A DNA stretch of 64,000 nucleotides from a virus. Of the stretch, positions 41 to 32,817 are shown in pieces. The DNA lies in the IMG/VR virus record IMGVR_UViG_3300043772_003377, positions 1-64,000 of that record; one strand, written 5' to 3'. The position numbers and the translations under genes were made by a program. The notes below the pieces were generated by a model, which saw nothing but the letters and a program-made list of their open reading frames with translations, was not told the origin of the DNA and made no database searches. How positions within the stretch are numbered: the stretch's first letter is position 1; each line of letters opens with the position of its first letter.

Positions 41-115
41 TGCGGGTCGGAGAAATGGCAACTCGTTTGGCTCATAACCAAAAGACTGATGGTTCGATTC
101 CATCACCCGCTACCA
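41..115 (+). tRNA. tRNA with CAU anticodon, initiator-like (tRNA-fMet-like)
   Basis: A complete cloverleaf can be folded by hand. The acceptor stem is 41-47 with 105-111, the D stem GAG/CTC is 50-52 with 62-64, and the anticodon stem TTTGG/CCAAA is 66-70 with 78-82 around anticodon CAT at 73-75. The T arm is GATGG-TTCGATT-CCATC (88-104), and CCA is encoded at 113-115. Three traits point to an initiator: bases 1 and 72 do not pair (T and T), the 11-24 pair is A-T as in bacterial initiators, and two of the three G-C pairs of the initiator anticodon stem are present. Against it, the third of those pairs is T-A. It could instead be an elongator Met or a lysidine-modified Ile tRNA. Confidence 0.88.
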
Positions 116-522
116 AGTGACTCCAGTTAAGTAGTGTTTAACCAATACACTCGATGTGAATGAGTTTAAAGTTATGACATCAAAAAAAAAGGTTCAGTTC
201 TTTAATGTGTGTATGATTTAGATTCGTATTTGTTCACCAAGTTTCTAACTGAGATTTGAAACCATAAAAAACAAACGAACCCCAATAAAAAGTCCTTAGT
301 ATGACTAATCAATGGGTAAAAAGATAAAAAAGACTAAAACTATGTTTTTTTAAGGTGTGGATTTTTTGTGATAACCACAGGGGTTTTTTCAAGTGATGAT
401 AAAAATCCGATAAAAACACAAACGTTCTAAAGTATACTGGTCATCACTAACGTCAAAGTGTCAATCCTATCTCACTCATTGGATTATCAGGTCGAACTTA
501 CTGAATGACAGAGTTCACGGCT
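116..522 (+). other. Non-coding stretch between tRNA and terminator, possible structured RNA
   Basis: No credible reading frame is present on either strand. The stretch lies between a tRNA and a strong terminator, so it is probably transcribed. Complementary segments exist, for example AGTGATGA (about 393-400) with TCATCACT (about 443-450), and AATCC with GGATT near 465-485. I could not match it to any RNA family I know. It may be a tRNA-processing trailer or an independent small RNA. Confidence 0.35.
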
Positions 523-567
523 AAGAGGGAAGAATTTGAGTAGCCATCAATTCTTCCCTCTTTTTTT
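523..567 (+). terminator. Rho-independent terminator upstream of smpB
   Basis: A perfect 14-bp stem, AAGAGGGAAGAATT (523-536) with AATTCTTCCCTCTT (549-562), is followed by a run of T. It ends the tRNA-containing transcript. Confidence 0.9.
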
Positions 568-605
568 ATTTAAAAAAAAATCAAATAACATATAAAAAAA
601 ATTCT

Positions 606-613
606 TATCTTTG
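606..613 (+). promoter_or_regulatory. Bacteroidota-type -7 box for smpB
   Basis: TATCTTTG matches the Bacteroidota sigma-A consensus TAnnTTTG. It ends four bases before the smpB ATG, so the transcript would be nearly leaderless. No clear -33 TTG was found. Confidence 0.55.
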
Positions 614-617
614 TTTA

Positions 618-1052
618 ATGAAACATTCGGTTAATATTGTTAATAAAAAAGTAAAGTTTGAATACGAATTTATCCAAACAGAAATTGCTGGAATTCAATT
701 AATTGGGTCTGAGGTAAAATCTATTAGGGAAAATAAAGCCTCAATTTCAGAGAGTTATTGTTATTTTAGTAATGGTGAATTATTCGTTAAAGGAATGACT
801 ATTTCAGATTATGGGTATGGAACTTTCCACGAAACCAATAGGGATAGAAAATTATTACTCAAGAAAAAAGAATTAAGAAAATTAGAGAATCAATTAATAA
901 AAGGATTAACAATTATTCCGTATAGAATTTTCATTAATGACAGAGGTTTGATTAAAATAGAAATTGTTTTAGGTCGAGGTAAGAAACTTTACGATAAAAG
1001 AGAATCAATTAAAAATCGAGACATTGATCGGGATATGAAAAGAAATATTTAA
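618..1052 (+). CDS. smpB: SsrA-binding protein SmpB
   Basis: SmpB binds the tRNA-like part of tmRNA and delivers it with EF-Tu to stalled ribosomes, where its C-terminal tail occupies the empty mRNA channel. The 144-residue protein keeps the family signature throughout: an OB-type core beginning VNKKVKFEYEF, the segment GIQLIGSEVKSIRENKAS (residues about 25-42), the GTFHETNRDRKLLL region (about 69-82) and the terminal GRGKKLYDKRESIKNRD. The basic tail is short, as in Bacteroidota SmpB. Its tmRNA partner lies 650 bases downstream on the other strand, so this phage carries both halves of trans-translation. It has its own host-type promoter and its own terminator. Confidence 0.96.
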   Translation: MKHSVNIVNKKVKFEYEFIQTEIAGIQLIGSEVKSIRENKASISESYCYFSNGELFVKGMTISDYGYGTFHETNRDRKLLLKKKELRKLENQLIKGLTIIPYRIFINDRGLIKIEIVLGRGKKLYDKRESIKNRDIDRDMKRNI

Positions 1053-1066
1053 AGTTCAGATAACAG

Positions 1067-1088
1067 ACCACCTTCGGGTGGTTTTTTT
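1067..1088 (+). terminator. Terminator after smpB
   Basis: ACCACC-TTCG-GGTGGT hairpin with a stable tetraloop, followed by a T run, 14 bases after the smpB stop codon. Confidence 0.9.
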
Positions 1089-1126
1089 ATTCACCTCCAC
1101 ATACTTTTTCCCATCTCCACACTATT

Positions 1127-1134
1127 TATTTATA
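1127..1134 (+). promoter_or_regulatory. Late-type motif TATTTATA before the HNH gene
   Basis: Exact TATTTATA ending 9 bases before the ATG at 1144. The same octamer precedes many structural genes in this window. Confidence 0.5.
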
Positions 1135-1143
1135 AAAGACATT

Positions 1144-1686
1144 ATGAGTAAAAATAAATCAAAACGGAAAATGGGGGAATGTACTTGTGATAATTGCGGA
1201 ATTACATTCAAAAAAACTTTAACTGAGTTATCACGAAGTAAAAAATTAGGTAGAAAAAATTTTTGTAGTAGAACCTGTGTGGGTAAAAATAATATTAAAA
1301 ATTTTGGAGATAAAAAAATCAATTATGATATATCCCAACATTCGGCTAATTCAAGAGACGAATTCACAGGACTAAGAGCTCTTTTACGTAGAATTAAAAA
1401 TAAATATCATAATCACGATGTTGATTTGGATTATCTTAAAGAGGTTTGGGATAATCAAAATAAATGTATATATACTGGCGTCGATTTAGTATTACCTAAA
1501 TGGAAAGGTATAAACAACCCTTTATATACCGCATCAATAGATAGGATAGATTCAACTAAAGGATATGTTAGAGGTAACATACAATACATTTCAATTACAT
1601 CAAATCATGCGAAAAATTCAATGTCTCACGAACAAATGATTGAGTTTTGTGAATTAATTATAAAAAGCAAAAAACCCATCAATTGA
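1144..1686 (+). CDS. HNH homing-type endonuclease
   Basis: A free-standing HNH endonuclease of the kind common in large phages. A zinc ribbon is visible near the N-terminus (CTCDNCG ... FCSRTC). The nuclease half contains CIYTG, then SIDRIDSTKGYVRGNIQYI and a late SNHAKNSMS segment, which is the usual layout for this HNH group. I start it at the ATG at 1144 because the frame extended upstream uses GTG and overlaps both the smpB terminator and the late-type motif. It sits between smpB and the tmRNA gene, so it may be a mobile gene inserted in the trans-translation locus. Its 3' end lies inside a bidirectional terminator hairpin. Confidence 0.85.
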   Translation: MSKNKSKRKMGECTCDNCGITFKKTLTELSRSKKLGRKNFCSRTCVGKNNIKNFGDKKINYDISQHSANSRDEFTGLRALLRRIKNKYHNHDVDLDYLKEVWDNQNKCIYTGVDLVLPKWKGINNPLYTASIDRIDSTKGYVRGNIQYISITSNHAKNSMSHEQMIEFCELIIKSKKPIN

Positions 1687-1698
1687 TGGGTTTTGTTT
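1671..1698. terminator. Bidirectional terminator between HNH gene and tmRNA
   Basis: AAAACCCATC-AATT-GATGGGTTTT is a perfect inverted repeat with T-rich sequence on both exits. It ends the plus-strand HNH gene (overlapping its stop) and follows directly on the CCA end of the minus-strand tmRNA. Confidence 0.8.
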
Positions 1699-2084
1699 TG
1701 GTGGAGGTAGCGATTTCGAAATCGCGTCTCGTTCATCTTAAAAATTAAGTACTACATGCTTAGGTTAATGTTTTCTAACATTCCAAAATATTTAGTTTTT
1801 TCTTCACCATCGTAAACTAAAAACCAATGGACGACTCGATTTAGGGTTCAGTCATTTTTCCACCTCAATAAGGACTTCTGTTTCTAGGTTATATGTCCAC
1901 CGACCCGTTGTTGTTTCTTAACTATTAAGCTACAACTTCAGCGTTTTCACGGATTAAACCGATAGTCGCCATTTTGTCTAAAACGTTGCCGTTTGAACTT
2001 TGAATCCATAGATTTAAGTGATAGGAATCCTCTCACCGCATGCACCTAACAATTAACAATGCCGATCAATACCATTTTACCCCC
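1699..2084 (-). ncRNA. ssrA: Transfer-messenger RNA (tmRNA)
   Basis: Read on the minus strand, the 5' end GGGGGTA pairs with TACCTCC just before ACCA at the 3' end, forming the tmRNA acceptor stem. Two blocks match bacterial tmRNA closely: GGTGCATGC near the 5' part and AAGCATGTAGTAC near the 3' part. The tag frame ends GAA AAC GCT GAA GTT GTA GCT TAA, giving ...ENAEVVA. If translation resumes after TAGAC the whole tag is KMATIGLIRENAEVVA, but the resume codon is uncertain. The T arm is the perfect palindrome GCGATTTCGAAATCGC, implying a 6-base rather than 7-base loop. Length about 386 nt. SmpB is encoded nearby. Confidence 0.94.
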
Positions 2085-2178: not shown

Positions 2179-3639
2179 ATGGAATCTGACGGTAATTTAA
2201 GAAGAGAAGCCTATAAACAGAGTGAAATAATCGAAGATAATGAAAAATTAACCTTTCTTAAATCGAATGGTTATGATTCCGTGTCGTATTTTGGACCTAA
2301 ATTCATTAAAGATGCTTATTCTAAAAAATTTCAATATTATGACATATATTTTATAATTGATAAAACCAAAAATCCTACCTCTGAAAAATTTTGTATTACA
2401 TTACTAAGAAAAAAAACTGGTAAAGATGTTAATTATAATGGTTTTAGTATAGTTGATAAAGAAAATGATGATATTGAAGATCCTGACGATTATATTAAAA
2501 GTAATTTCCATTCGATCTACGACAAGTATTTGGAACTAATGAGTAATTCTATTTATAATATTTTATCGAACATAAAAAAAGGTTCTGATATTGTAAATGA
2601 TATTGATATTTCTGATTTTGATAATTTAATTTATGATATTAAATATAGTCCTTCAAAACCTGGCGCTAGTCAAATTATATTAAGATTTGATTCGGTAACT
2701 GATTTTTTTAATATTTTTACAGATAATGACGATGAGGCTTGGTTTTTAACCACTATTGGTAATGGAAGAAGTGGTTATGAATTTGAGCCTTGGGATACTT
2801 CTCACTATGAATGGAAAGATGGTTATATGTTTTATCATTTTACGGTGGAAAATAAACAAAAGATGATTGAAATTTATAGTTATTTAAATACTGCAGAAAG
2901 AATTACAATAGAAAACTTAGAAGAAAATAGTGTAATTATTGCAAGAGATTTAGATAAATATTTTTCAAGTGAAGTTGATAATATTATTTCAGAATACAAT
3001 GAATTAATTAATGAATGTAAATACGATACAACCGTTGACCTGATTAACGGAGAATTTTGTGACGTATTTTCAAATTACGGAATCTTTGTAAAAGATAATA
3101 ATTGTTTTTGGTCATATAGAACAAGTGTTAAAATATTAACAACTTTATTTGAAATATATGGCGCAAAACATATGTCTGTATATGAGTTACTTCAAAAAAT
3201 AAATAAAGAAAGTATTCATTTAGATCCTAATTATTATGAGTATGCTTATGAAACTTATTGTAATGACCAACACAATGAAATTTTTTCTAAAAGATTTAAT
3301 AATTATGTCTCTTCAAAACTTGACGACATATTAGAAGAAATATCAACAGATGAAAAATTTACAAGTCAAGAATTCATTAATTTTAAAGATAATGTTTTTA
3401 ATAAATATAAATTAGGAGAATGGTATCAATTACCTCACGACCCAAATACTAAAGAAAGAAAATTTAGGATTTATAAGTATGACCCTGAAAAACAAGTTGT
3501 GATAGTTCATTATACTCCCGCCCAATTCAAACCTATGGAAACTAGGTCTTATAATTACGAATCTTTTATTGATTTTTTACATAATAGAGAACTTTTTGAG
3601 AGAAAAGTTGTTAACAAAGGAAAAAAGCGTTACATTTGA
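2179..3639 (+). CDS. Unknown protein, 486 aa
   Basis: I do not recognise this protein. It is acidic and rich in Asp, Asn and Tyr, with no signal peptide or membrane segment. The C-terminal part (about 410-480) is more basic and contains WYQLPHDPNTKERKFRIYKY. It starts after a late-type motif and ends only three bases before the peptidase gene, so the two are probably co-transcribed. The pairing suggests a shared expression time, but gives no clear function. Confidence 0.75.
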   Translation: MESDGNLRREAYKQSEIIEDNEKLTFLKSNGYDSVSYFGPKFIKDAYSKKFQYYDIYFIIDKTKNPTSEKFCITLLRKKTGKDVNYNGFSIVDKENDDIEDPDDYIKSNFHSIYDKYLELMSNSIYNILSNIKKGSDIVNDIDISDFDNLIYDIKYSPSKPGASQIILRFDSVTDFFNIFTDNDDEAWFLTTIGNGRSGYEFEPWDTSHYEWKDGYMFYHFTVENKQKMIEIYSYLNTAERITIENLEENSVIIARDLDKYFSSEVDNIISEYNELINECKYDTTVDLINGEFCDVFSNYGIFVKDNNCFWSYRTSVKILTTLFEIYGAKHMSVYELLQKINKESIHLDPNYYEYAYETYCNDQHNEIFSKRFNNYVSSKLDDILEEISTDEKFTSQEFINFKDNVFNKYKLGEWYQLPHDPNTKERKFRIYKYDPEKQVVIVHYTPAQFKPMETRSYNYESFIDFLHNRELFERKVVNKGKKRYI

Positions 3640-3642
3640 TGT

Positions 3643-4455
3643 ATGAAACGCGATTATAACCTACTTAAAGAAGTCCTATCAATACCAACGGTAACCTATA
3701 ACGAAGGCAAAATGGTTGATTTTATTGTTAATTGGTTAACCACCAACAATATACCATTTTATAAAGATTCTAGTAATAACATCTATGCTACAAAGAAAAC
3801 GGATAATGTTGATTATTATCCTTGTGTGGTTGCTCATACCGACACCGTACACGACATAGATACTATTAATATTATTGAGAAGATGTTACCAAACGAACAA
3901 AAGGTTTTAAAAGAATCTTTAACCGCAATAAATGATGATGGAGAACAAACAGGAATTGGTGGAGATGATAAGTGCGGGGTTTATGCTTGTTTGGAACTAT
4001 TAAAAGAACTTCCAAATTTGAAATCGGCATTCTTTGTATCTGAAGAAACAGGATGTCACGGTTCAAGAAAAGCCGACCCAAATTTCTTTAAAGACGTTGG
4101 TTATTCTATTCAGTTTGACGCACCTGGAAATTCAATGGTTACAGAATATTGTATGGGGGTTAAATTATTTGATAGAGAAGACGAATTCTTTAAATCTTGT
4201 GATGAGATATTAACTGAAAGTTTTGATAATAGAAATAAGTATTATTCTCATCCATATACAGATGTTTATGCGTTAAAAACTAAATTCGATTTCTCTTGTA
4301 TTAATTTCGCTATTGGTTATTATAACTACCACAGAAAAAATGAGTATGTTGTAATTGAAGATGTTTATAACGGGATTGATACAGGTAAAAAAATGATAGA
4401 AAAATTAGGTTATAAAAAATATAAAAAAATATCAACTGAAAAAAGTCGGTTATAA
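3643..4455 (+). CDS. Compact M20/M42-type zinc metallopeptidase
   Basis: Zinc aminopeptidases of the M20 clan (PepT-like) trim small peptides or remove N-terminal residues. The metal-ligand and catalytic motifs are in order: AHTDT (H65, D67), GGDDK (D108/D109), SEET with the catalytic and ligand Glu at 134-135, FDAPG (D159) and a late YHRKNEY (H230). At 270 residues it is well below the usual 370-410, and the inserted lid or dimerisation domain appears largely missing. It lies back-to-back with the phage ClpC gene across a shared terminator. A role in finishing degradation of ClpP products is an inference from that context; a cell-wall peptide substrate is an alternative. Confidence 0.85.
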   Translation: MKRDYNLLKEVLSIPTVTYNEGKMVDFIVNWLTTNNIPFYKDSSNNIYATKKTDNVDYYPCVVAHTDTVHDIDTINIIEKMLPNEQKVLKESLTAINDDGEQTGIGGDDKCGVYACLELLKELPNLKSAFFVSEETGCHGSRKADPNFFKDVGYSIQFDAPGNSMVTEYCMGVKLFDREDEFFKSCDEILTESFDNRNKYYSHPYTDVYALKTKFDFSCINFAIGYYNYHRKNEYVVIEDVYNGIDTGKKMIEKLGYKKYKKISTEKSRL

Positions 4456-4457
4456 AA

Positions 4458-4486
4458 AAAGGGGATTTTAATCCCCTTTCTTTTTT
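4458..4486. terminator. Bidirectional terminator between peptidase and clpC
   Basis: AAAGGGGAT with ATCCCCTTT around a short loop, followed by T runs in both directions. It serves the plus-strand peptidase and overlaps the last codons of the minus-strand clpC. Confidence 0.85.
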
Positions 4487-6498
4487 CTCTTCTTTTTCTC
4501 TTTTATCTTGACCTCTTTTTCGTCAACATAAATTTCATATTCTTTATCTTCAGAAATTTCACCTTTCAAAACTTCTTCTGAGATATAATCTTCTACTTTA
4601 TCTTGTAAAGCTCTTTTTAATGGTCTTGCCCCATACAACTCATCAAAACCAACTTCAGAAATTAAATCAACCAATGATTTATCATATGAGAATTTGTATT
4701 TTAAATTAGATAATCTTGATATTAGTTTTTTAACTTCAATATCAACAATCTTACTAATATCCTCTTTATTTAATTGATTAAACACAATTATTTCATCAAT
4801 ACGATTTAAGAATTCAGGAGAGAAAAACTTTTGTAATTCTTTTTTAAGAATGTCTTTTTTCTGTTCTTCTTGAACATATGTTGATGTAGAAGATTTAAAC
4901 CCTACCCCTGTTCCGAAATCCTGTAGTTTTTTAACACCCAAGTTTGATGTCATAATAATCAAACAATTTTTAAAGTTAATTTTTCTACCAAGACTATCTG
5001 TAATATGACCATCATCCAATAATTGTAGTAATACTGAGAAAATATCTTTGTGGGCCTTCTCAACCTCATCGAAAAGAATAACTGAATAAGGTTTATTTTT
5101 AACCATTTCCGTTAATTGTCCACCATCTTCATACCCAACATAAGAAGGAGGTGCTCCGATTAATCTTGTTATGGTGTGTTTTTCTTGATATTCACTCATA
5201 TCAACCCTAATTAAGTTTTCTTCACTACCAAAAATTTCTTTGGCCAGTTGTTTTGCTAAATGAGTTTTACCCACACCTGTTGAACCTAAGAATATAAATG
5301 ACCCGATTGGTTTATTTGGTTCTCTAATACCTAATCTATTTCTTCTGATAGATTTTGCAATTTTTAAAACCGCTTCAGACTGACCAATAACTTTACTATT
5401 AATATTATCTGCCAAACTAATTAAATTTTTTGTCTCATCTGAGTTTAATTTAGTGATGGGTATTTTAGTCATATTTGAAACCACGTCATAAACCAAATCA
5501 TCAGTTACTTCTTTTTTCTGAATCTGTAACTCTGTTTCAAACTTCTTTTTCTCCGCCTCTAATTTATCTAAAATCTTTCTTTCTTTATCTCTTAAAGATG
5601 CTGCCAATTCATAATTTTGTTTTTTAACAACATCCAATTTTTCAAGTTTAACGTCTTGAGCCTCCAATTTTAACTTCTCAATAATTTCAGGTAATTTAAT
5701 ATCTACCTGACTTCTCGCACCAACTTCATCAATAATATCGAACGCCTTATCAGGAAATTCTCTATCTGTAATATATCTTTCCGCCAATTCCACACATAAT
5801 TTTAATATTTCATCAGTATAGTAAACATTATGGTAAGATTCATATTTTTCTTTAGCATTTTGTAAGATTTGTAATGTCTCTTCTTTAGTTGCGGCATCAA
5901 CAATCACTTTTTGGAATCTTCTTTCCAAAGCACCATCTTTTTCAAAATTCTTTCTGTATTCATCAAGAGTAGTTGCACCAACACATTGTATTTCTCCTCT
6001 TGCTAATGCGGGTTTAAATATGTTTGAAGCGTCTAATGAACCTGATGTATTTCCCGCCCCAACAATTGTATGTATCTCATCAATGAAAACTATAATGTTA
6101 GGATTCGCCTGAAGTTCTTCAATAATCACTTTCATCCTTTCTTCAAACTGACCTCTATATTTTGTCCCCGCAACAATTGATGTCATATCTAATGAAACAA
6201 TTTTTTTATCCATTAGGTTTCTAGGACAATCTCCATTTTGGATTTTAATCGCTAACCCTTCAATTATAGCGGTTTTACCACAACCTGGCTCACCAATAAT
6301 AATTGGGTTATTTTTCTTTCTTCTTGATAGGATTTGAGCAATTCTATTAATCTCTCTTTCCCTACCAATAACAGGGTCTAATTTACCTTCTTCCGCTAAT
6401 TTTATTAAATCCCTACTAAAGTTATCTAATACAGGTGTGCTAGAAGTACCTTCACCTTTACCTTTATTCTTACCACTATTTTCCGCAGATTCAATCAT
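4468..6498 (-). CDS. clpC: ClpC-type AAA+ unfoldase lacking the N-terminal domain
   Basis: A class-I Clp/Hsp100 unfoldase that threads proteins into ClpP. It has two AAA+ modules: Walker A GEPGCGKT (69-76) with Walker B VFIDE (137-141), and Walker A GSTGVGKT (405-412) with Walker B FDE (476-478). A UVR-type linker (about 291-310) sits between them, as in ClpC. The second module keeps the pore segment YVGYEDGG and the loop FGTGVGF (VGF at 532-534), the tripeptide by which ClpC docks ClpP. The roughly 150-residue N-terminal adaptor-binding domain is absent; only a short Gly/Lys-rich leader precedes module 1. No phage ClpP is seen here, so host ClpP is the likely partner. Closest in style to Bacteroidota ClpC. 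Confidence 0.95.
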   Translation of the reverse strand: MIESAENSGKNKGKGEGTSSTPVLDNFSRDLIKLAEEGKLDPVIGREREINRIAQILSRRKKNNPIIIGEPGCGKTAIIEGLAIKIQNGDCPRNLMDKKIVSLDMTSIVAGTKYRGQFEERMKVIIEELQANPNIIVFIDEIHTIVGAGNTSGSLDASNIFKPALARGEIQCVGATTLDEYRKNFEKDGALERRFQKVIVDAATKEETLQILQNAKEKYESYHNVYYTDEILKLCVELAERYITDREFPDKAFDIIDEVGARSQVDIKLPEIIEKLKLEAQDVKLEKLDVVKKQNYELAASLRDKERKILDKLEAEKKKFETELQIQKKEVTDDLVYDVVSNMTKIPITKLNSDETKNLISLADNINSKVIGQSEAVLKIAKSIRRNRLGIREPNKPIGSFIFLGSTGVGKTHLAKQLAKEIFGSEENLIRVDMSEYQEKHTITRLIGAPPSYVGYEDGGQLTEMVKNKPYSVILFDEVEKAHKDIFSVLLQLLDDGHITDSLGRKINFKNCLIIMTSNLGVKKLQDFGTGVGFKSSTSTYVQEEQKKDILKKELQKFFSPEFLNRIDEIIVFNQLNKEDISKIVDIEVKKLISRLSNLKYKFSYDKSLVDLISEVGFDELYGARPLKRALQDKVEDYISEEVLKGEISEDKEYEIYVDEKEVKIKEKKKRKKKGD

Positions 6499-7453: not shown

Positions 7454-9688
7454 ATGAACGATTTTAACTCAATACTTAAAAGTTTCAATATTCAAGATAA
7501 TTTAAATCCTAAATTTTGGAAAAAATCTGAAAAAGATGAAACAACCAAATTAAATCCCGAAATAAGGAAAAGATTATTAGAAATTGCTCACCAATTCATA
7601 GAATTTCTAAAAGTAGATATTGTTGTGTCTGATATCATAATAACGGGTTCAATTTCTAATTATAATTGGTCTAAATTTTCTGACATTGATTTACATATAA
7701 TGGCGGATTTCGGTCAATTCCCTAAAAAAACATTACCACTTTATGAAGAACTTTTTAAATTAAAAAAGGCGGTGTTTAATGATAAACACGATATTAAAAT
7801 TTATGGTTATGATGTTGAGCTATATGTTCAAGATGATACAGAATCTCACACAAGTACTGGAATTTATTCTGTACTAAACGATGAATGGGTAATTGAACCA
7901 AAAAAAGAAGATTTTAAAGTTAATAAAGAATTAATTAAAGAAAAATCCAAACAATGGATGGATATTATTGACTCTGTTATTGAATCAGCTAAAGATGAAA
8001 ATTTAGAGGATGCAAAAAAAATAATTACTAAATATAAAGAAAAATTAAAAAAATATAGAAGTTGTGGTTTAGAAAAAGGTGGGGAATATTCAGATGAAAA
8101 TCTTGTTTTTAAAGTATTAAGGAGAAATGGTTATGTTGAAAAATTATTTGATTTTGACAATAAAAATATGGATGATAAACTGACTTTAAAGGAGGCGGTT
8201 TTAAATCGACCAATTGATAGCTGGAATATTACAAGTCCTTATGGTCCTAGATGGGGAAAACAACATCATGGGATAGATTTAGGAACACCTTCCGGAACTG
8301 AAATTAAATCACCGTCAGACGGAGTTGTATTAGATGCCGCATTTAAAGATGGTGCTTGTGGAGGTACAATTTATATAGACCATGAAAATGGTTATAAGAC
8401 AAGATATTGTCATGCGAAAGAAATTAATGTAAGTAAAGGTGATAGGGTTAAATCAGGTGAAGTGATAGGTTTAACTGGCGGAGGTAAAGATGATAAAGGA
8501 AGAGGTAATTCACAAGGAGCACATTTACATTTTGAAATGTATAAAGACGGTAAGATAGTCGACCCTCAAAGTATAGAATATTCTAAAGAATTAGTTTATT
8601 CTACAGATGAAGTTAAAGATGAGGAAAAACTTAAAACAATTGATATTGTTAAAACTCTAATTGATAAAAGACAGGAATTTAAAGATAAAACAATTGACGA
8701 TGTTTTAAACACTTATGAAAGTTCTAAATTTTTAGCCAATTTTATTGAAATTCCTCAAAAAAATAAGACATATGAAAATATGAGAAAATACGGTAAAATA
8801 TCTTTTGATGAAGACGTTAAAAAAATTCAAGAGGCTTTACAATATTTGGGGTTTTCATTACCTAAATGGGGAATTGATGGATTATTCGGTCCTGAAACTG
8901 AAAAAGCGGTTAAAGATTTTGAAAAAAAATATGATTTAAAAAATGATGGTAAGGTAGATGGTGAAGATATTAAATATATAATTTCCTTATTATTATTAAA
9001 AGGTTTTAAAGATGTTGAATTAGGTGAATTAAAATATGATTCTGAAACAACAATCAATGGTGATGTAGATTTTAGTAAAGCCGGATTTAATTCTACTCAA
9101 ATAGGTAATATTAACTTAATAATTGATGAGATGAAAAATAAAGGAATAACTAACCCCTACACACAAATTGGTATATTATCTGTAATTGGTAAGGAAAGCG
9201 ATTTTAAATCCTTTAAAGAAATGTCATATTCAAATACATCAAATTCAAGAATAAGACAAATATTTGGAAATAGAGTTTCAAAATATAGTGATTCTGAATT
9301 AAATGATTTTAAAAAAGATGATAGTAAATTTTTTGACCTTGTATATGGTAAAGATTCAGGTGTTAAGTTAGGTAATAACCGGCCAGGTGATGGATGGAAA
9401 TATATTGGTAGAGGATTTAATGGGATCACTGGAAAGTCCAATTATAAAAAATACGGAGATGCTGTTGGTATTGATTTAGTTTCAAATCCGGAATTATTGG
9501 AAGACCCCAAAGTCGCCGCAAAAGCTGCGGTATCATATTTTACTAAAAATAAATCTGTGTCTGAGATACCAAATTTTAACAATAAAGACGAATCGATTAA
9601 ATATTTTTCTGATATAAACGCTGGAGGACAATCAAGTTGGGCTTTAGGTAAAGCCAAAGAATCAGGAGATAGGTTTGAGATTGCGTAA
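7454..9688 (+). CDS. Four-domain protein: nucleotidyltransferase, M23 peptidase, peptidoglycan-binding, GH19-type lysozyme
   Basis: Four domains can be read in order. Residues about 35-200 resemble a nucleotidyltransferase fold with the GS...SDIDLH signature (G65-S66, D77, D79). Residues about 250-380 form an M23/LytM zinc endopeptidase with HHGIDLG, YCHAKE and HLHFE. Residues about 450-515 form a peptidoglycan-binding repeat with GIDGLFGPET. Residues about 545-740 resemble a GH19 lysozyme or chitinase with GDGWKYIGRGFNGITGKSNY. Two lytic activities suggest a cell-wall-degrading virion enzyme or lysin. The N-terminal nucleotidyltransferase is unexpected in such an enzyme. There is no signal peptide. 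A late-type motif lies immediately upstream. Confidence 0.9.
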   Translation: MNDFNSILKSFNIQDNLNPKFWKKSEKDETTKLNPEIRKRLLEIAHQFIEFLKVDIVVSDIIITGSISNYNWSKFSDIDLHIMADFGQFPKKTLPLYEELFKLKKAVFNDKHDIKIYGYDVELYVQDDTESHTSTGIYSVLNDEWVIEPKKEDFKVNKELIKEKSKQWMDIIDSVIESAKDENLEDAKKIITKYKEKLKKYRSCGLEKGGEYSDENLVFKVLRRNGYVEKLFDFDNKNMDDKLTLKEAVLNRPIDSWNITSPYGPRWGKQHHGIDLGTPSGTEIKSPSDGVVLDAAFKDGACGGTIYIDHENGYKTRYCHAKEINVSKGDRVKSGEVIGLTGGGKDDKGRGNSQGAHLHFEMYKDGKIVDPQSIEYSKELVYSTDEVKDEEKLKTIDIVKTLIDKRQEFKDKTIDDVLNTYESSKFLANFIEIPQKNKTYENMRKYGKISFDEDVKKIQEALQYLGFSLPKWGIDGLFGPETEKAVKDFEKKYDLKNDGKVDGEDIKYIISLLLLKGFKDVELGELKYDSETTINGDVDFSKAGFNSTQIGNINLIIDEMKNKGITNPYTQIGILSVIGKESDFKSFKEMSYSNTSNSRIRQIFGNRVSKYSDSELNDFKKDDSKFFDLVYGKDSGVKLGNNRPGDGWKYIGRGFNGITGKSNYKKYGDAVGIDLVSNPELLEDPKVAAKAAVSYFTKNKSVSEIPNFNNKDESIKYFSDINAGGQSSWALGKAKESGDRFEIA

Positions 9689-14189: not shown

Positions 14190-15953
14190 ATGTCTTTAAC
14201 TAAAGAACAAGTTTTATTAGAATATGTGAAGTGCGTAAAGGACACCCCTTACGCACTTCGTACTTATTTACAAACCTACGATAATACCGTATCAAAATAC
14301 GTTCCATTAGAATTATTCCCAGACCAAATTTCATTACTTGAAGATTTTGAAAAGTATAATGAAAATATTGCGTTAAAATATAGACAGGCTGGAGTATCAA
14401 CGGTTACCGCGGCTTGGGCGTCTAAAAAATTAGTTTTAGCACAAAAAACAAAACCTGAGAAAATACTTATAATTGCAAACAAATTAGACACATCTCAAGA
14501 GATGGCTAATAAAATAAGGACATTCGTTTCTCAATGGCCTTCTTGGACGGGTATTGATTTTTCTCCGGAAAAAAACTCCCAAAAACATTACAAATTAACA
14601 AATAATTGTGAAGTTAAGGCGGTTGCAACATCAAAGGATGCTTTAAGGGGTTTTACACCAACAATACTTATATTTGACGAGGCGGCATTTATCGATGCTG
14701 ATAGTGATTTTTGGGCGGCTTGTATGGCATCACTTTCTACTGGTGGTAAAGTTATTGTTATTTCCACGCCAAATGGGTTTGACCCAATTTACTACGAAAT
14801 TTATGACCAAGCTTTAAGAAGTATGAATGACTTCAAAATTTCTGAAATGTTTTGGTTTAGAGACCCAAGATATACTAAAGATTTATATTTTGTTAAAACT
14901 GACGATATTGTTCATTATCTTTTAAATAAAGAAGACTATAAAAATAATGAAGTTGTTAATTGGTCAAATATTGATTTTGACGATCGAAATTTTGAAGATG
15001 CTAAAAAACTAATGAGTGAAGGTTTTAAACCTTGTTCTGATTGGTTTGAGAGGATGGTTAAAAAATTAAAATTTGACAAACGTAAAGTATCGCAAGAGTT
15101 AGAGTGTAATTTCTTAGGTTCAGGTGATAACGTATTTGATTCAAAATTATTACAAAAAATACACGAGACATATGTTAAAGAACCTGTTAATAGAATGATA
15201 GGTAATTCTCTATGGATATGGAAAGAACCTATTATGGGTCATAGATATGTTATGGGTGTTGATGTTAGTAGAGGAGATAGCGAAGATTTTAGTTGTTTTC
15301 AAATTATCGATTTTGATGAAAGAGAACAAGTTGCCGAATATATCGGAAAATTACCTCCTGATAATATGGCGGAAATTTGTTTTAAATGGGCTAATATGTA
15401 TTCCGCATATATAGTTGTCGATATAACGGGGGGGATGGGTGTATCCACATCTAGAAAACTACAAGAGATGGGATATAAAGATTTATATGTTGATGGTGTT
15501 GATATAACAAATAAATGGAAATACGTTCCAAAATCTGCGGAAAAAATACCAGGAATTAATTTTAACAACAAACGGGTTCAAATAATTGCCTCATATGAAG
15601 AAGCATTAAGACACGATTTTAAAATTTATAGTAATAGATTATTCAATGAAATGAATACATTTATTTATATAAACGGAAGACCCGACCATCAGAAAGGTCA
15701 TCACGATGACTTAATAATGTCAATTTCTATGGCAACATACGTTGCCGAATCTTCTTTTAGTAATTTAACTAAAGTTTCAGAACAAGCCAAAGTTATGATT
15801 GAATCTTGGGCGGTAAGTAATAATGACACAATTACAGAACAAATATCATTCAATCCCGTTATACCTGTTAATACTGATAGGTCAAATCTTAGAAACGAAC
15901 AAATAAGTAAAGACGATTATTTAAAATATTCTTGGTTATTTGGTCGTAGATAA
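14190..15953 (+). CDS. terL: Large terminase subunit (gp17-type)
   Basis: The packaging motor ATPase-nuclease. The N-terminal ATPase shows the variant P-loop YRQAGVST (about 69-76), the Walker B with catalytic Glu ILIFDEAAF (about 165-173) and the coupling motif ISTPNG (about 191-196). The C-terminal RNase-H-like nuclease shows its acidic residues in GVDVSRGD (about 356-363), VVDITGG (about 409-415) and HDDLIMSIS (about 510-518). The length of 587 is normal for T4-type TerL. A strong 11-bp hairpin lies within codons 13-23. No small terminase was recognised nearby. Confidence 0.95.
   Translation: MSLTKEQVLLEYVKCVKDTPYALRTYLQTYDNTVSKYVPLELFPDQISLLEDFEKYNENIALKYRQAGVSTVTAAWASKKLVLAQKTKPEKILIIANKLDTSQEMANKIRTFVSQWPSWTGIDFSPEKNSQKHYKLTNNCEVKAVATSKDALRGFTPTILIFDEAAFIDADSDFWAACMASLSTGGKVIVISTPNGFDPIYYEIYDQALRSMNDFKISEMFWFRDPRYTKDLYFVKTDDIVHYLLNKEDYKNNEVVNWSNIDFDDRNFEDAKKLMSEGFKPCSDWFERMVKKLKFDKRKVSQELECNFLGSGDNVFDSKLLQKIHETYVKEPVNRMIGNSLWIWKEPIMGHRYVMGVDVSRGDSEDFSCFQIIDFDEREQVAEYIGKLPPDNMAEICFKWANMYSAYIVVDITGGMGVSTSRKLQEMGYKDLYVDGVDITNKWKYVPKSAEKIPGINFNNKRVQIIASYEEALRHDFKIYSNRLFNEMNTFIYINGRPDHQKGHHDDLIMSISMATYVAESSFSNLTKVSEQAKVMIESWAVSNNDTITEQISFNPVIPVNTDRSNLRNEQISKDDYLKYSWLFGRR
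14228..14259 (+). repeat. Perfect 11-bp inverted repeat inside terL
   Basis: GAAGTGCGTAA (14228-14238) and TTACGCACTTC (14249-14259) pair around a 10-base centre AGGACACCCC. It is GC-rich for this genome and falls in the first 25 codons of terL. Confidence 0.8.
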
Positions 15954-22846: not shown

Positions 22847-24658
22847 ATGGAGAATAACAATAATCAAAATTTAACGGTTTGGCAAAGATTACAAAGGGCT
22901 ATGGGACCTAATGCTTTGTTAAATCAGGATTACCCTGTATATAAGTTCGACAAAGAACAATTACTTAAAACAACGTCAAAGCAAGAATACGAAAGAGAAA
23001 AGTTAGAAGCTCAACAAACCTTCTTTCTATCAAATCAATGGGCAAAAATTGAGAGTAACTTATACACTCAAGCGGTTTATTACGAACCAACGAGATTAGC
23101 ATCATTTTACGACTATGAAAGTATGGAATATACTCCGGAAATATCGGCAGCTTTAGATATTTACGCTGAGGAATCTACAACCGTTAACCAAAATGGTTAT
23201 ATGTTACAGATATATTCTGAATCAAAAAGAATTAAATCCATATTAGCCGACTTATTTAATAATGTTTTAGATCTTAACACCAACTTACCAATGTGGATTA
23301 GAAACACTTGTAAGTATGGTGATAATTTTGTTTATCTTAAACTAGACCCTGAAAAAGGAATAATTGGTTGTATGCAATTACCAAATATTGAGATTGAACG
23401 TTTAGAAAGAGGAATGCCTGCGAAGTCCGCGAGAATGGAAGAACCCCAAGAAAATAAAGGATTGAGATTTAAATGGAAAACTAAAGATATGGAATTTAAT
23501 TCTTGGGAAATTGCTCATTTTAGATTATTAGGTGATGATAGAAAACTTCCATATGGAACATCAATGCTGGAAAAGGCTAGACGTATCTGGAAACAATTAT
23601 TGTTATCTGAAGATGCTATGTTAATTTATAGAACATCGAGAGCCCCTGAAAGACGTGTATTTAAAGTATTTGTTGGTAATATGGACGACAAAGATGTTGA
23701 GCCGTATGTACAACGTGTTGCGAATAAATTCAAAAGAGACCAAGTTGTAGATAAAAATACGGGTAATGTTGATATGAGGTTCAATCAAATGGCGGTCGAC
23801 CAAGATTATTTTATTCCTGTTAGAGACCCGGCCAGTCCAAACCCTATTGAAACATTACCGGGAGCTCAAAATTTAGGAGAAATTGCCGATATTGAATATA
23901 TTCAAAAGAAATTATTAACCGCATTACGTGTTCCTAAAGCCTTCTTAGGGTTTGAAGAACCTGTTGGTGATGGTAAAAATTTATCTTTAATGGACATTAG
24001 ATTTGCTAGAACAATAAATAGAATTCAAAAGTCTATAATATCCGAATTAAACAAAGTTGCAATTATTCATTTATTTTTACTAGGTTTTGAAGATGAGTTA
24101 TCTAATTTTATGTTAGGACTTACAAATCCATCAAAACAAGCCGATTTATTATCGGTTGAAATTTGGAAAGAAAAAATATTGGCGTATAAGGACGCGGTAA
24201 CCGCGGATCAATCAGGTATTGCACCGGTATCGTTCTCTTGGGCTAAGAAACATATTTTAGGATTTTCGGATGAAGAAATTAAACTTGATTTACAACAACA
24301 AAGAATTGAGAGAGCTGTTGGCGCTGAGTTATTAAATTCCGCAACAATAATAACTCACACAGGTATATTCGATAATGTCGATAAATTATATAAACAAGTT
24401 ACAGGAGCAACATCTTCTACCGCAACACCTCCACCTCCACCTGAAGAAGGAGGAGAAATGGGTGGAGGAGCTCCACCGCCACCACCAGAAGCTGGAGGAG
24501 GACCTGGATTAGCCCCGGAGTCAAAATCTAAAAGTAATTTAAATATTTTATTAGAGAGTGATTCATTAATAGGTGACGATTCTTTTATTGATTTATCAAA
24601 AGCGAGAAATTCTTTAGGAGAAATGGAAGAACAATTAAAAAATATACTTAGAGACTGA
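22847..24658 (+). CDS. Portal protein (gp20-type)
   Basis: The 603-residue dodecameric portal at the unique capsid vertex. Family features are clear: YESMEYTPEISAALDIYAEE (about 86-105), WIRNTCKYGDNFVYLKL (about 147-163), PYGTSMLEKARRIWKQL and DIEYIQKKLLTALRVPKAFLG (about 347-367). The C-terminal region carries two Pro runs separated by Gly/Glu-rich sequence, then a helical end. It is the first gene of the head module, preceded by a late-type motif; the order portal, protease, scaffold, capsid is conserved with T4. Confidence 0.95.
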   Translation: MENNNNQNLTVWQRLQRAMGPNALLNQDYPVYKFDKEQLLKTTSKQEYEREKLEAQQTFFLSNQWAKIESNLYTQAVYYEPTRLASFYDYESMEYTPEISAALDIYAEESTTVNQNGYMLQIYSESKRIKSILADLFNNVLDLNTNLPMWIRNTCKYGDNFVYLKLDPEKGIIGCMQLPNIEIERLERGMPAKSARMEEPQENKGLRFKWKTKDMEFNSWEIAHFRLLGDDRKLPYGTSMLEKARRIWKQLLLSEDAMLIYRTSRAPERRVFKVFVGNMDDKDVEPYVQRVANKFKRDQVVDKNTGNVDMRFNQMAVDQDYFIPVRDPASPNPIETLPGAQNLGEIADIEYIQKKLLTALRVPKAFLGFEEPVGDGKNLSLMDIRFARTINRIQKSIISELNKVAIIHLFLLGFEDELSNFMLGLTNPSKQADLLSVEIWKEKILAYKDAVTADQSGIAPVSFSWAKKHILGFSDEEIKLDLQQQRIERAVGAELLNSATIITHTGIFDNVDKLYKQVTGATSSTATPPPPPEEGGEMGGGAPPPPPEAGGGPGLAPESKSKSNLNILLESDSLIGDDSFIDLSKARNSLGEMEEQLKNILRD

Positions 24659-31017: not shown

Positions 31018-32817
31018 ATGGGAGCATTATTAGAATCAGGTCTTGTTGGTAACATCGGGTTAAAACACCTTAAAGTTATTAAAGAAGATACAATTAACAA
31101 ATGGGATAAATTAGGATTCCTAGAAGGTCTTAAAGGACATTTAAAAGAGAACGTGGCTCAATTATATGAGAACCAAGCATCTTTCCTAATTAATGAGGCG
31201 ACATCAGAAGGTTCAAACGGAGCGTTTGAAACAGTTGTGTTTCCAATCGTAAGACGTGTTTTCTCTAAATTATTAGCGAACGACATCGTATCAGTACAAG
31301 CTATGAATTTACCTATCGGTAAATTATTCTACTTTGTACCTAAAATTCAAGGTTATAATACCGGTAATGAACACTTTGCACCAGTAGGAGCACCTAATGG
31401 AGCTAACGTTGGTGATGGTTACGGTGCTGGTAGTACTTACGGAAATAAAAATCTTTACGATTTATTCTATGAAGGTTCTGAACCAGGATTGAATCCAGCA
31501 GGGTTATTTGATTATTCTAAAGGTCAATTCACAGCGGTTACAGCATCAACAAGAGTTCAAGTATGGTCAGGTTCAGAATTAATTGATGAAACTACTGAAT
31601 TAGATGGTGAAACAGTAAGAAAAGTTATCATCAAAATGTCAGGTTTCTCAAATTCAGGAGCGGGTAAATTAATCGGACCTGATGGTAATGAAATCGATAC
31701 TGAAACTTTCTTATCTGATTTAGTTATCACTAAAGGTGCTGGTTTAGATGTTGACGCTGATTCAGCTTGTGAAGTTGCTGATAACACTCCATTATTATTT
31801 AGAGTTGTTACACAACAATATGGTAAAGGAATTGTTCAGTATGGTAAAACTACAACCGTTAACTGGGCAGAAGGAAATGGTGGTTCATTTAAAGATGTTT
31901 GTGACGCTGAAGGTTACATTTATTTAGAAGTTGACTTATCTTGTCCGGCTTGTGTTGGTTGTGGTGCCGATACATTAGATGGTTACACAGGAACAACTAT
32001 AGTTTCTGCGGCAACAACTACTTCATTCGTTGCAGTATTTAAAAGATACCGTGAATTAGAATTTGAAGATAAAATTGGTGAAGTTTCTTTTGATTTAGAT
32101 TCAGTTACCGTTTCTGTTACTGAAAGAAAATTAAGAGCACAATGGTCTCCTGAATTAGCACAAGACGTTGCGGCATTCCACAACATCGATGCTGAAGCTG
32201 AATTAACAGCATTATTATCTGAACAAGTTGCGGCCGAAATCGACCGTGAAATTTTACGTGATTTACGTAAAGGTGCGGCTTGGTCATTACGTTGGGATTA
32301 CAACGGATGGAGAAGAGTTACAGGATTATCAACTTCTTATACTCAGAAAGATTGGAATCAAACTTTGATTACTGCAATTAACCAATTGTCAGCTCAAATC
32401 CACAAGTCAACTCTTCGTGGTGGTGCTAACTGGATCGTTGTATCAAGTGAGATTTCTGCAATCTTCGATGATTTAGAATACTTCCACGTATCTAACGCAT
32501 CTCCTGAGCAAGATCAGTATAATATGGGTATTGAAAGAGTAGGTACTTTAGCAGGTCGTTACCAAGTGTATCGTGACCCTTACTTCCCACCAAACACAAT
32601 TTTGTTGGGTCATAAAGGAACATCGTTACTTGACACTGGTTACATCTACGCACCTTACGTTCCACTTCAATTAACACCTACAATGTATAATCCGTTTAAT
32701 TTCACTCCAATAAAAGGAATAATGACAAGGTATGCTAAGAAAATGGTAAACAACCGTTTCTACGCGAAAATTACCGTAGATGGTGTTCGTACATTTGATT
32801 TAAGAGAGTTAAGATAA
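31018..32817 (+). CDS. Major capsid protein (gp23-type)
   Basis: 599 residues of HK97-fold capsid protein of the gp23 family. A likely gp21 cleavage site is visible at LINE|ATSEG after residue 60, close to the T4 gp23 site at residue 65. Following it are FPIVRRVFSKLLANDIVSVQ and GKLFYFVPKIQ, and near the end KGIMTRYAKKMVNNRFYAKI. Base use is less AT-biased than in neighbours, as expected for a very highly expressed gene. The leader before the ATG is almost pure A, with no Shine-Dalgarno. A strong terminator follows. Confidence 0.96.
   Translation: MGALLESGLVGNIGLKHLKVIKEDTINKWDKLGFLEGLKGHLKENVAQLYENQASFLINEATSEGSNGAFETVVFPIVRRVFSKLLANDIVSVQAMNLPIGKLFYFVPKIQGYNTGNEHFAPVGAPNGANVGDGYGAGSTYGNKNLYDLFYEGSEPGLNPAGLFDYSKGQFTAVTASTRVQVWSGSELIDETTELDGETVRKVIIKMSGFSNSGAGKLIGPDGNEIDTETFLSDLVITKGAGLDVDADSACEVADNTPLLFRVVTQQYGKGIVQYGKTTTVNWAEGNGGSFKDVCDAEGYIYLEVDLSCPACVGCGADTLDGYTGTTIVSAATTTSFVAVFKRYRELEFEDKIGEVSFDLDSVTVSVTERKLRAQWSPELAQDVAAFHNIDAEAELTALLSEQVAAEIDREILRDLRKGAAWSLRWDYNGWRRVTGLSTSYTQKDWNQTLITAINQLSAQIHKSTLRGGANWIVVSSEISAIFDDLEYFHVSNASPEQDQYNMGIERVGTLAGRYQVYRDPYFPPNTILLGHKGTSLLDTGYIYAPYVPLQLTPTMYNPFNFTPIKGIMTRYAKKMVNNRFYAKITVDGVRTFDLRELR

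Follow-up and report, generated by a model that had tools for sequence, protein, structure and literature searches.

Approximately 2.3% of the deposited phages carry a transfer-messenger RNA (tmRNA) (PMC9004378). The tmRNA of mycobacteriophage Wildcat is very highly expressed (PMC7474061). A tmRNA together with its protein partner SmpB was reported already in 2020 in huge phages (Al-Shayeb et al., PMC7162821), so that the pair alone is not new. In the available portion of that survey tmRNA was called with ARAGORN, and this portion was not found to describe a tag analysis, a link to GOLLD RNA or a linkage to Clp proteins (PMC7162821). GOLLD is a 14-mer RNA cage that reportedly pulls down ribosomes (PMC12286853). 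Here we analyze the first 64,000 nucleotides (hereafter the window) of the 104,513-base virus record IMGVR_UViG_3300043772_003377, in which a tmRNA, SmpB and a ClpC-like unfoldase are encoded close to the probable end of a GOLLD RNA. What appears to be new is a family of tmRNAs largely missed by ARAGORN and having a conserved tag of 21–22 residues, the position of this tmRNA in 21 loci beside a peptidase and an unfoldase without N-domain, and the association of the tmRNA with GOLLD. With about even confidence we think that the phage has a trans-translation pathway of its own, the tag being routed to the phage ClpC.

The tmRNA gene (ssrA) lies at 1699..2084 on the minus strand. A first-pass annotation, made from the letters alone, had predicted a tmRNA there with paired acceptor ends and a tag frame ending in TAA, and each of these features was recovered. 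Using cmscan with laxer filters, RF00023 matches at exactly these coordinates with 61.5 bits (E = 5e-23; gathering score 47 bits), complete over model positions 1–374. The acceptor ends GGGGGTA/TACCTCC form 7 of 7 pairs, the third of which is G-U (G3-U70, the alanine identity element), the T-stem is paired in 5 of 5 positions and closed by a T-loop of 6 nucleotides, and ACCA is encoded at the 3′ end. ARAGORN and an Rfam scan with default fast filters both miss this tmRNA in the window, and of 31 tmRNAs of its family ARAGORN recovers 2, flanks included. Counts of phage tmRNAs have relied on a program to which most members of this family are invisible, so that phage trans-translation is under-reported. 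RF00023 scores are about 46–106 bits for the phage tmRNAs versus 114–161 bits for those of Bacteroidota hosts.

A chance match is excluded because the tmRNA and smpB recur together in relatives and because the paired bases covary. A full-length tmRNA adjoins smpB in 10 of the 12 relatives found first, an eleventh (L008) being cut off inside the tmRNA, and in an alignment of 24 phage tmRNAs compensatory changes are seen in 31 of 43 predicted pairs. All 12 virus records first searched whole, the window's own included, contain a tmRNA, as do most records of the closest clade when searched in the same way; G3-U70 is kept in 57 of 57 tmRNAs examined. No cultured phage carrying the same tmRNA was found, the matches spanning only the last ~32 bases. 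The failure of ARAGORN to recognize the gene, and a T-loop one base shorter, could be taken as signs that the phage tmRNA is a nonfunctional copy, either decaying or carried along as a passenger. However, the 6-nucleotide T-loop recurs in 6 of 56 relatives' tmRNAs, and the compensatory changes, the invariant G3-U70, the selection on the tag (see below) and the conservation over many genomes all speak against decay; the conservation already contradicts it, and we give this explanation next to no credence. CCA is missing from many of the phage tmRNA genes (which have ACTT, AGAT, or ACGT instead), L002, L005, and L010 being examples, and it would have to be added to their transcripts after 3′ trimming.

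The tag reading frame, GNVLDKMATIGLIRENAEVVA followed by TAA (1925..1990, minus strand), comprises 21 conserved codons, the frame being open from 1990 down to its stop at 1927–1925. In relatives the tag is 21–22 residues long and has the pattern G[ND]V[LI]xK[ML]xx[VIL]GL[VIL]R....VA, which is kept along its whole length in tmRNAs only about 50% identical to that of the window. For the first 14 tag codons the ratio of nonsynonymous to synonymous polymorphism (pN/pS) is 0.385, versus 0.73 and 1.8 in the remaining two frames. Among Bacteroidota host tmRNAs, as read by ARAGORN from genomes, 28 of 29 have nine-residue tags of the form GxxxYALAA/AMAA, the types being GENNYALAA or GESTYAMAA; the tag starts at 90–97 within the phage genes and mostly at 94–99 within those of the hosts. 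From its length, pattern, pN/pS and contrast to the hosts it follows that the phage tag is a different, selected peptide. Longer tags that are read by a dedicated protease exist, for example that read by Lon of Mesoplasma. Another long tag, GNIYNSEDMMSIPTFITRVAQEAKPEVLEVA, is encoded by a phage tmRNA in G087 (L278, 43390–43753), 6.5 kb from GOLLD.

The second component, SmpB (144 amino acids), had likewise been assigned correctly at the outset: its gene (618..1052, plus strand) is full length, the product matching PF01668 with 159.5 bits over residues 7–143, and the C-terminal tail is complete, with 16 residues after DKR versus mostly 14–16 in hosts. Searches of viral contigs for SmpB yielded 12 loci first and then 80. 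The phage pair had also been called rare. This holds among deposited phages, where an SmpB relative is encoded by 67 of 50,697 records (some of these contigs may be bacterial), but the pair is known from huge phages (PMC7162821) and is widespread in the metagenomic phage group considered here. In a phylogeny of phage and host SmpBs, 29 phage SmpBs group together (support 99/95) within the SmpBs of Bacteroidota; Chitinophagaceae and a 735-kb phage are nearest to this clade, while Lak phages and two ~640-kb phages are placed elsewhere in the tree. These separate placements indicate repeated acquisition of SmpB from Bacteroidota.

The order tmRNA, F2, M20/M42-like peptidase, ClpC-like unfoldase is kept in 21 loci from six tmRNA clusters. 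F2 (486 amino acids; 2179..3639, plus strand) is a conserved neighbor adjoining the tmRNA in 21 of 21 loci compared. Its AlphaFold model is confident (predicted local distance difference test, pLDDT, 83), no match to it was found in Pfam, PHROG or the PDB folds, and a viral structure library gave two matches under E 0.001 with template modeling scores only near 0.2. The peptidase (3643..4455, plus strand; phrog_4191, 3e-41) matches Pfam M20 weakly, just under the cut-off. The AAA+ unfoldase (4468..6498, minus strand; phrog_4871) aligns to residues 146–803 of ClpC and has two AAA modules, a D2-small domain and a ClpP loop (VGF). The alignment starts only at residue 146, and it is because the N-terminal Clp_N domain is missing that we call the protein ClpC-like. 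In known ClpC proteins the [VIM]GF loop is the contact to ClpP; it is retained in 20 of 20 of the ClpC-like unfoldases. In 9 of 10 phage records searched, the ClpC-like protein is the single match to a Clp unfoldase, and in G088 the tmRNA-ClpC block is intact although GOLLD is 177 kb distant. ClpP is encoded in 8 of 20 phage records searched. Seven relatives with both GOLLD and tmRNA encode it (G008, G014, G017, G018, G028, G030, and G103), among them all four of the largest genomes (280–320 kb).

The first-pass annotation had proposed that the phage pair could redirect the ribosome rescue of the host, and this idea is now backed, at the level of sequence, by a conserved phage-specific tag and a conserved adjoining ClpC-like unfoldase. 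A private pathway is suggested by the RNA and its predicted structure, the conserved tag, the intact SmpB and the conserved ClpC with a loop resembling the ClpP contact. In such a pathway the phage tmRNA would be alanylated by the host enzyme via G3-U70, would enter stalled ribosomes together with the phage SmpB (or with host SmpB in relatives without the gene) and would free them, adding the phage-specific 21-residue tag instead of the nine-residue …YALAA tag of the host. The tagged fragments would preferentially be unfolded by the phage ClpC-like ATPase without N-domain, provided that it recognizes the tag, and would be degraded by the ClpP of the host or, in the larger genomes, by that of the phage, with the neighboring peptidase finishing the peptides. 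The gain would be that ribosomes and amino acids stay in supply during the destruction of host mRNA, under the control of the phage rather than of the host. With a conserved private tag beside a phage unfoldase, the question of why phages carry tmRNA becomes testable.

Several observations weigh against such a private pathway. The phage tags still end in small hydrophobic residues (VVA/TVA/NVA), and host ClpXP might degrade the phage tag without any phage protease. ClpP is absent from the 104-kb fragment to which the window belongs, the neighborhood could be conserved for phage gene order only, and most contigs with GOLLD and tmRNA are without smpB, so that a private SmpB is not required. It is possible, if rather doubtful, that phage tmRNA and SmpB merely add rescue capacity, the tag being one more degron for ClpXP or ClpCP of the host and the neighboring ClpC having a task of its own. 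Phage tmRNAs of other lineages occur without such neighbors, that of Wildcat being very highly expressed (PMC7474061), and small residues at the end of the phage tag are a feature of other ssrA tags too. Added capacity leaves unexplained, however, why the whole 21–22-residue tag is conserved (pN/pS 0.385) and why the ClpC neighbor is constant. The unusual length of the tag, its full-length conservation and the absence of the host-type ALAA ending would also be compatible with a tag that is not a degron and that gives truncated proteins another fate (protection, localization, sequestration) or acts as a peptide on a host target; with a ClpC-like unfoldase and a peptidase as the conserved neighbors, we regard this as quite improbable.

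The window begins with what is probably the 3′ end of a GOLLD RNA (RF02032; 1..33, plus strand), which is cut by the contig end. GOLLD RNA was reportedly described by Weinberg in 2009. The sequence AGGTTCTCACAAATAGGTGTAATCTCAGCCTA corresponds to the last part of the GOLLD 3′ domain; the RF02032 model gave no match on the window's record, the window holding just the last 33 bases of GOLLD. In the near-identical relatives L002–L004 a whole GOLLD is present at the equivalent place (306–315 bits; 97% identity). For a set independent of SmpB, viral contigs were scanned with a GOLLD 3′-domain pattern, and 50 contigs, none of them from the SmpB searches, were searched whole. A tmRNA above cut-off was found in 28 of these 50 versus 0 of 50 random contigs (Fisher p = 4e-11), the latter being drawn by a random 14-mer, with no matching of genome size or of tRNA content. 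Independent of this control is the positional test: in 27 of 29 placed cases the tmRNA lies within 2.5 kb downstream of GOLLD (3.6 expected), and it is convergent with GOLLD in 27 of 29. At 90% identity, 25 tmRNA sequences fall into 15 clusters, 14 of which adjoin GOLLD. The link between GOLLD and tmRNA is real. SmpB was found in only 5 of the 50 contigs; since the tmRNA was found in 28, GOLLD and tmRNA are the core neighbors and smpB is a later insertion between the two in the clade of the window. A primary link between GOLLD and smpB as a general rule, which had been considered, was rejected on the same counts. The adjacency of GOLLD and tmRNA may be gene order inherited in one broad phage lineage, because the 21 loci from six clusters have their genes downstream of the tmRNA in common.

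These numbers bear on a further explanation, namely that GOLLD, tmRNA and SmpB are one apparatus in which, late in infection, the cage would serve for holding or sorting stalled ribosomes, tRNAs or tmRNA-SmpB. Besides the frequency, distance and convergence just given, the GOLLD end lies 75–87 nucleotides before smpB in several relatives, smpB directly follows GOLLD in G084, and the reported pull-down of ribosomes by the 14-mer cage (PMC12286853) would fit. On the other hand, nearly all cases share downstream genes and may reflect the gene order of one lineage, GOLLD occurs without a detected tmRNA, and tmRNA and SmpB occur without GOLLD in a clade of 340–430-kb genomes; we consider one apparatus distinctly unlikely. 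Only slightly better are the prospects of the related proposal that GOLLD cages and the phage set of tmRNA, SmpB and ClpC form one system of ribosome rescue or ribosome custody, which is still unlikely. If true, it would be the first functional assignment of GOLLD, and the association is in any case a concrete lead on the purpose of the giant RNA cage.

Some arrangements deviate from the common one. In G107 (L432, 14354–16510) GOLLD and tmRNA are on the same strand, 1.7 kb apart, and within the 20 kb read there was no match to seven window proteins (F2, peptidase, ClpC, terminase, portal and capsid among them); this may be an independent co-location of GOLLD and tmRNA. A search of four GOLLD contigs without tmRNA (L151, L175, L191, and L170) for a hidden tmRNA found none. 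In L170 (G084, a 117-kb contig; 1–775) GOLLD has directly after it an smpB 71% identical to that of the window. L151 (5629–6112), L175 (725–1100), and L191 (3976–4490) represent another group of GOLLD phages, in which GOLLD is immediately followed by a tRNA-Glu-like gene (TTC) carrying a ~50-nucleotide insertion and, 2–3.7 kb downstream on the same strand, by a ClpC-like gene. In two ~640-kb phages (LR745206.1, 420875–425218; LR756502.1, 434685–442556) GOLLD is located 2–6 kb upstream of a ClpC-like gene, which is a second way in which GOLLD comes near ClpC.

The remaining features of the window agree with its initial assignment to a phage. The record is that of a large phage of Bacteroidota, its phage nature being judged by three genes in the window, which are a large terminase subunit (14190..15953; phrog_2), a T4-like portal protein (22847..24658; phrog_213, 3e-65) and a T4-like major head protein (31018..32817; phrog_138, 1.5e-67), all on the plus strand. 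Between the GOLLD end and smpB are a tRNA-Met (CAT; 41..115, plus strand; ARAGORN; RF00005, 56 bits) and a non-coding stretch (116..617, plus strand) with a strong hairpin and T-run near 523–570. This stretch is conserved in the sub-clade of the window (97% identity to L002 over the first 617 bases), is missing from L005, L009, and L010, where the distance from the GOLLD end to smpB is 75–87 nucleotides, and may prolong the GOLLD-tRNA transcript. A terminator-like hairpin follows smpB on its 3′ side (1065..1084, plus strand), and a second one, working both ways, lies between the convergent genes (1671..1694). The HNH/endonuclease VII-like gene between smpB and the tmRNA (1144..1686, plus strand; phrog_3322, 1.2e-17) is different or absent in most relatives as judged by synteny and is likely an insertion; the gene content of the gap between GOLLD and tmRNA varies between relatives, resembling an insertion hot spot. 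A 744-residue protein (7454–9688) in which peptidoglycan-binding and chitinase-like domains are joined to an M23 peptidase is, from its predicted domains, probably a cell-wall lytic enzyme.

How does the locus compare with the systems described? As here, the tmRNA and SmpB of the huge phages are, in the part of the survey available, phage-encoded in very large genomes (PMC7162821), and the 735-kb genome of that survey groups near the phage SmpB clade; the ARAGORN program used there misses most of the present family. The mycobacteriophages Bxz1, Wildcat, and DS6A, of another lineage, also encode their tmRNA, and in the portions of their literature available no SmpB partner was found described. 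With host ssrA and SmpB of Bacteroidota the phage genes share the one-piece tmRNA fold and a Gly tag start at the same position, whereas the host tags have 9 residues and end in LAA/MAA and the phage tags have 21–22 and end in VA. ClpC of Bacillus subtilis and Staphylococcus aureus shares with the phage unfoldase the two AAA modules, a UVR-like middle part and the VGF loop but has an N-terminal adaptor-binding domain that the phage protein is without. No report of a link to tmRNA or SmpB was found in the GOLLD papers examined, leaving aside the original 2009 and the 2020 mycobacterial GOLLD papers. Known GOLLD (RF02032) resembles that of the relatives in its conserved 3′ domain (237–328 bits) and in having a tRNA nearby; it differs in that here GOLLD adjoins smpB and a convergent tmRNA.
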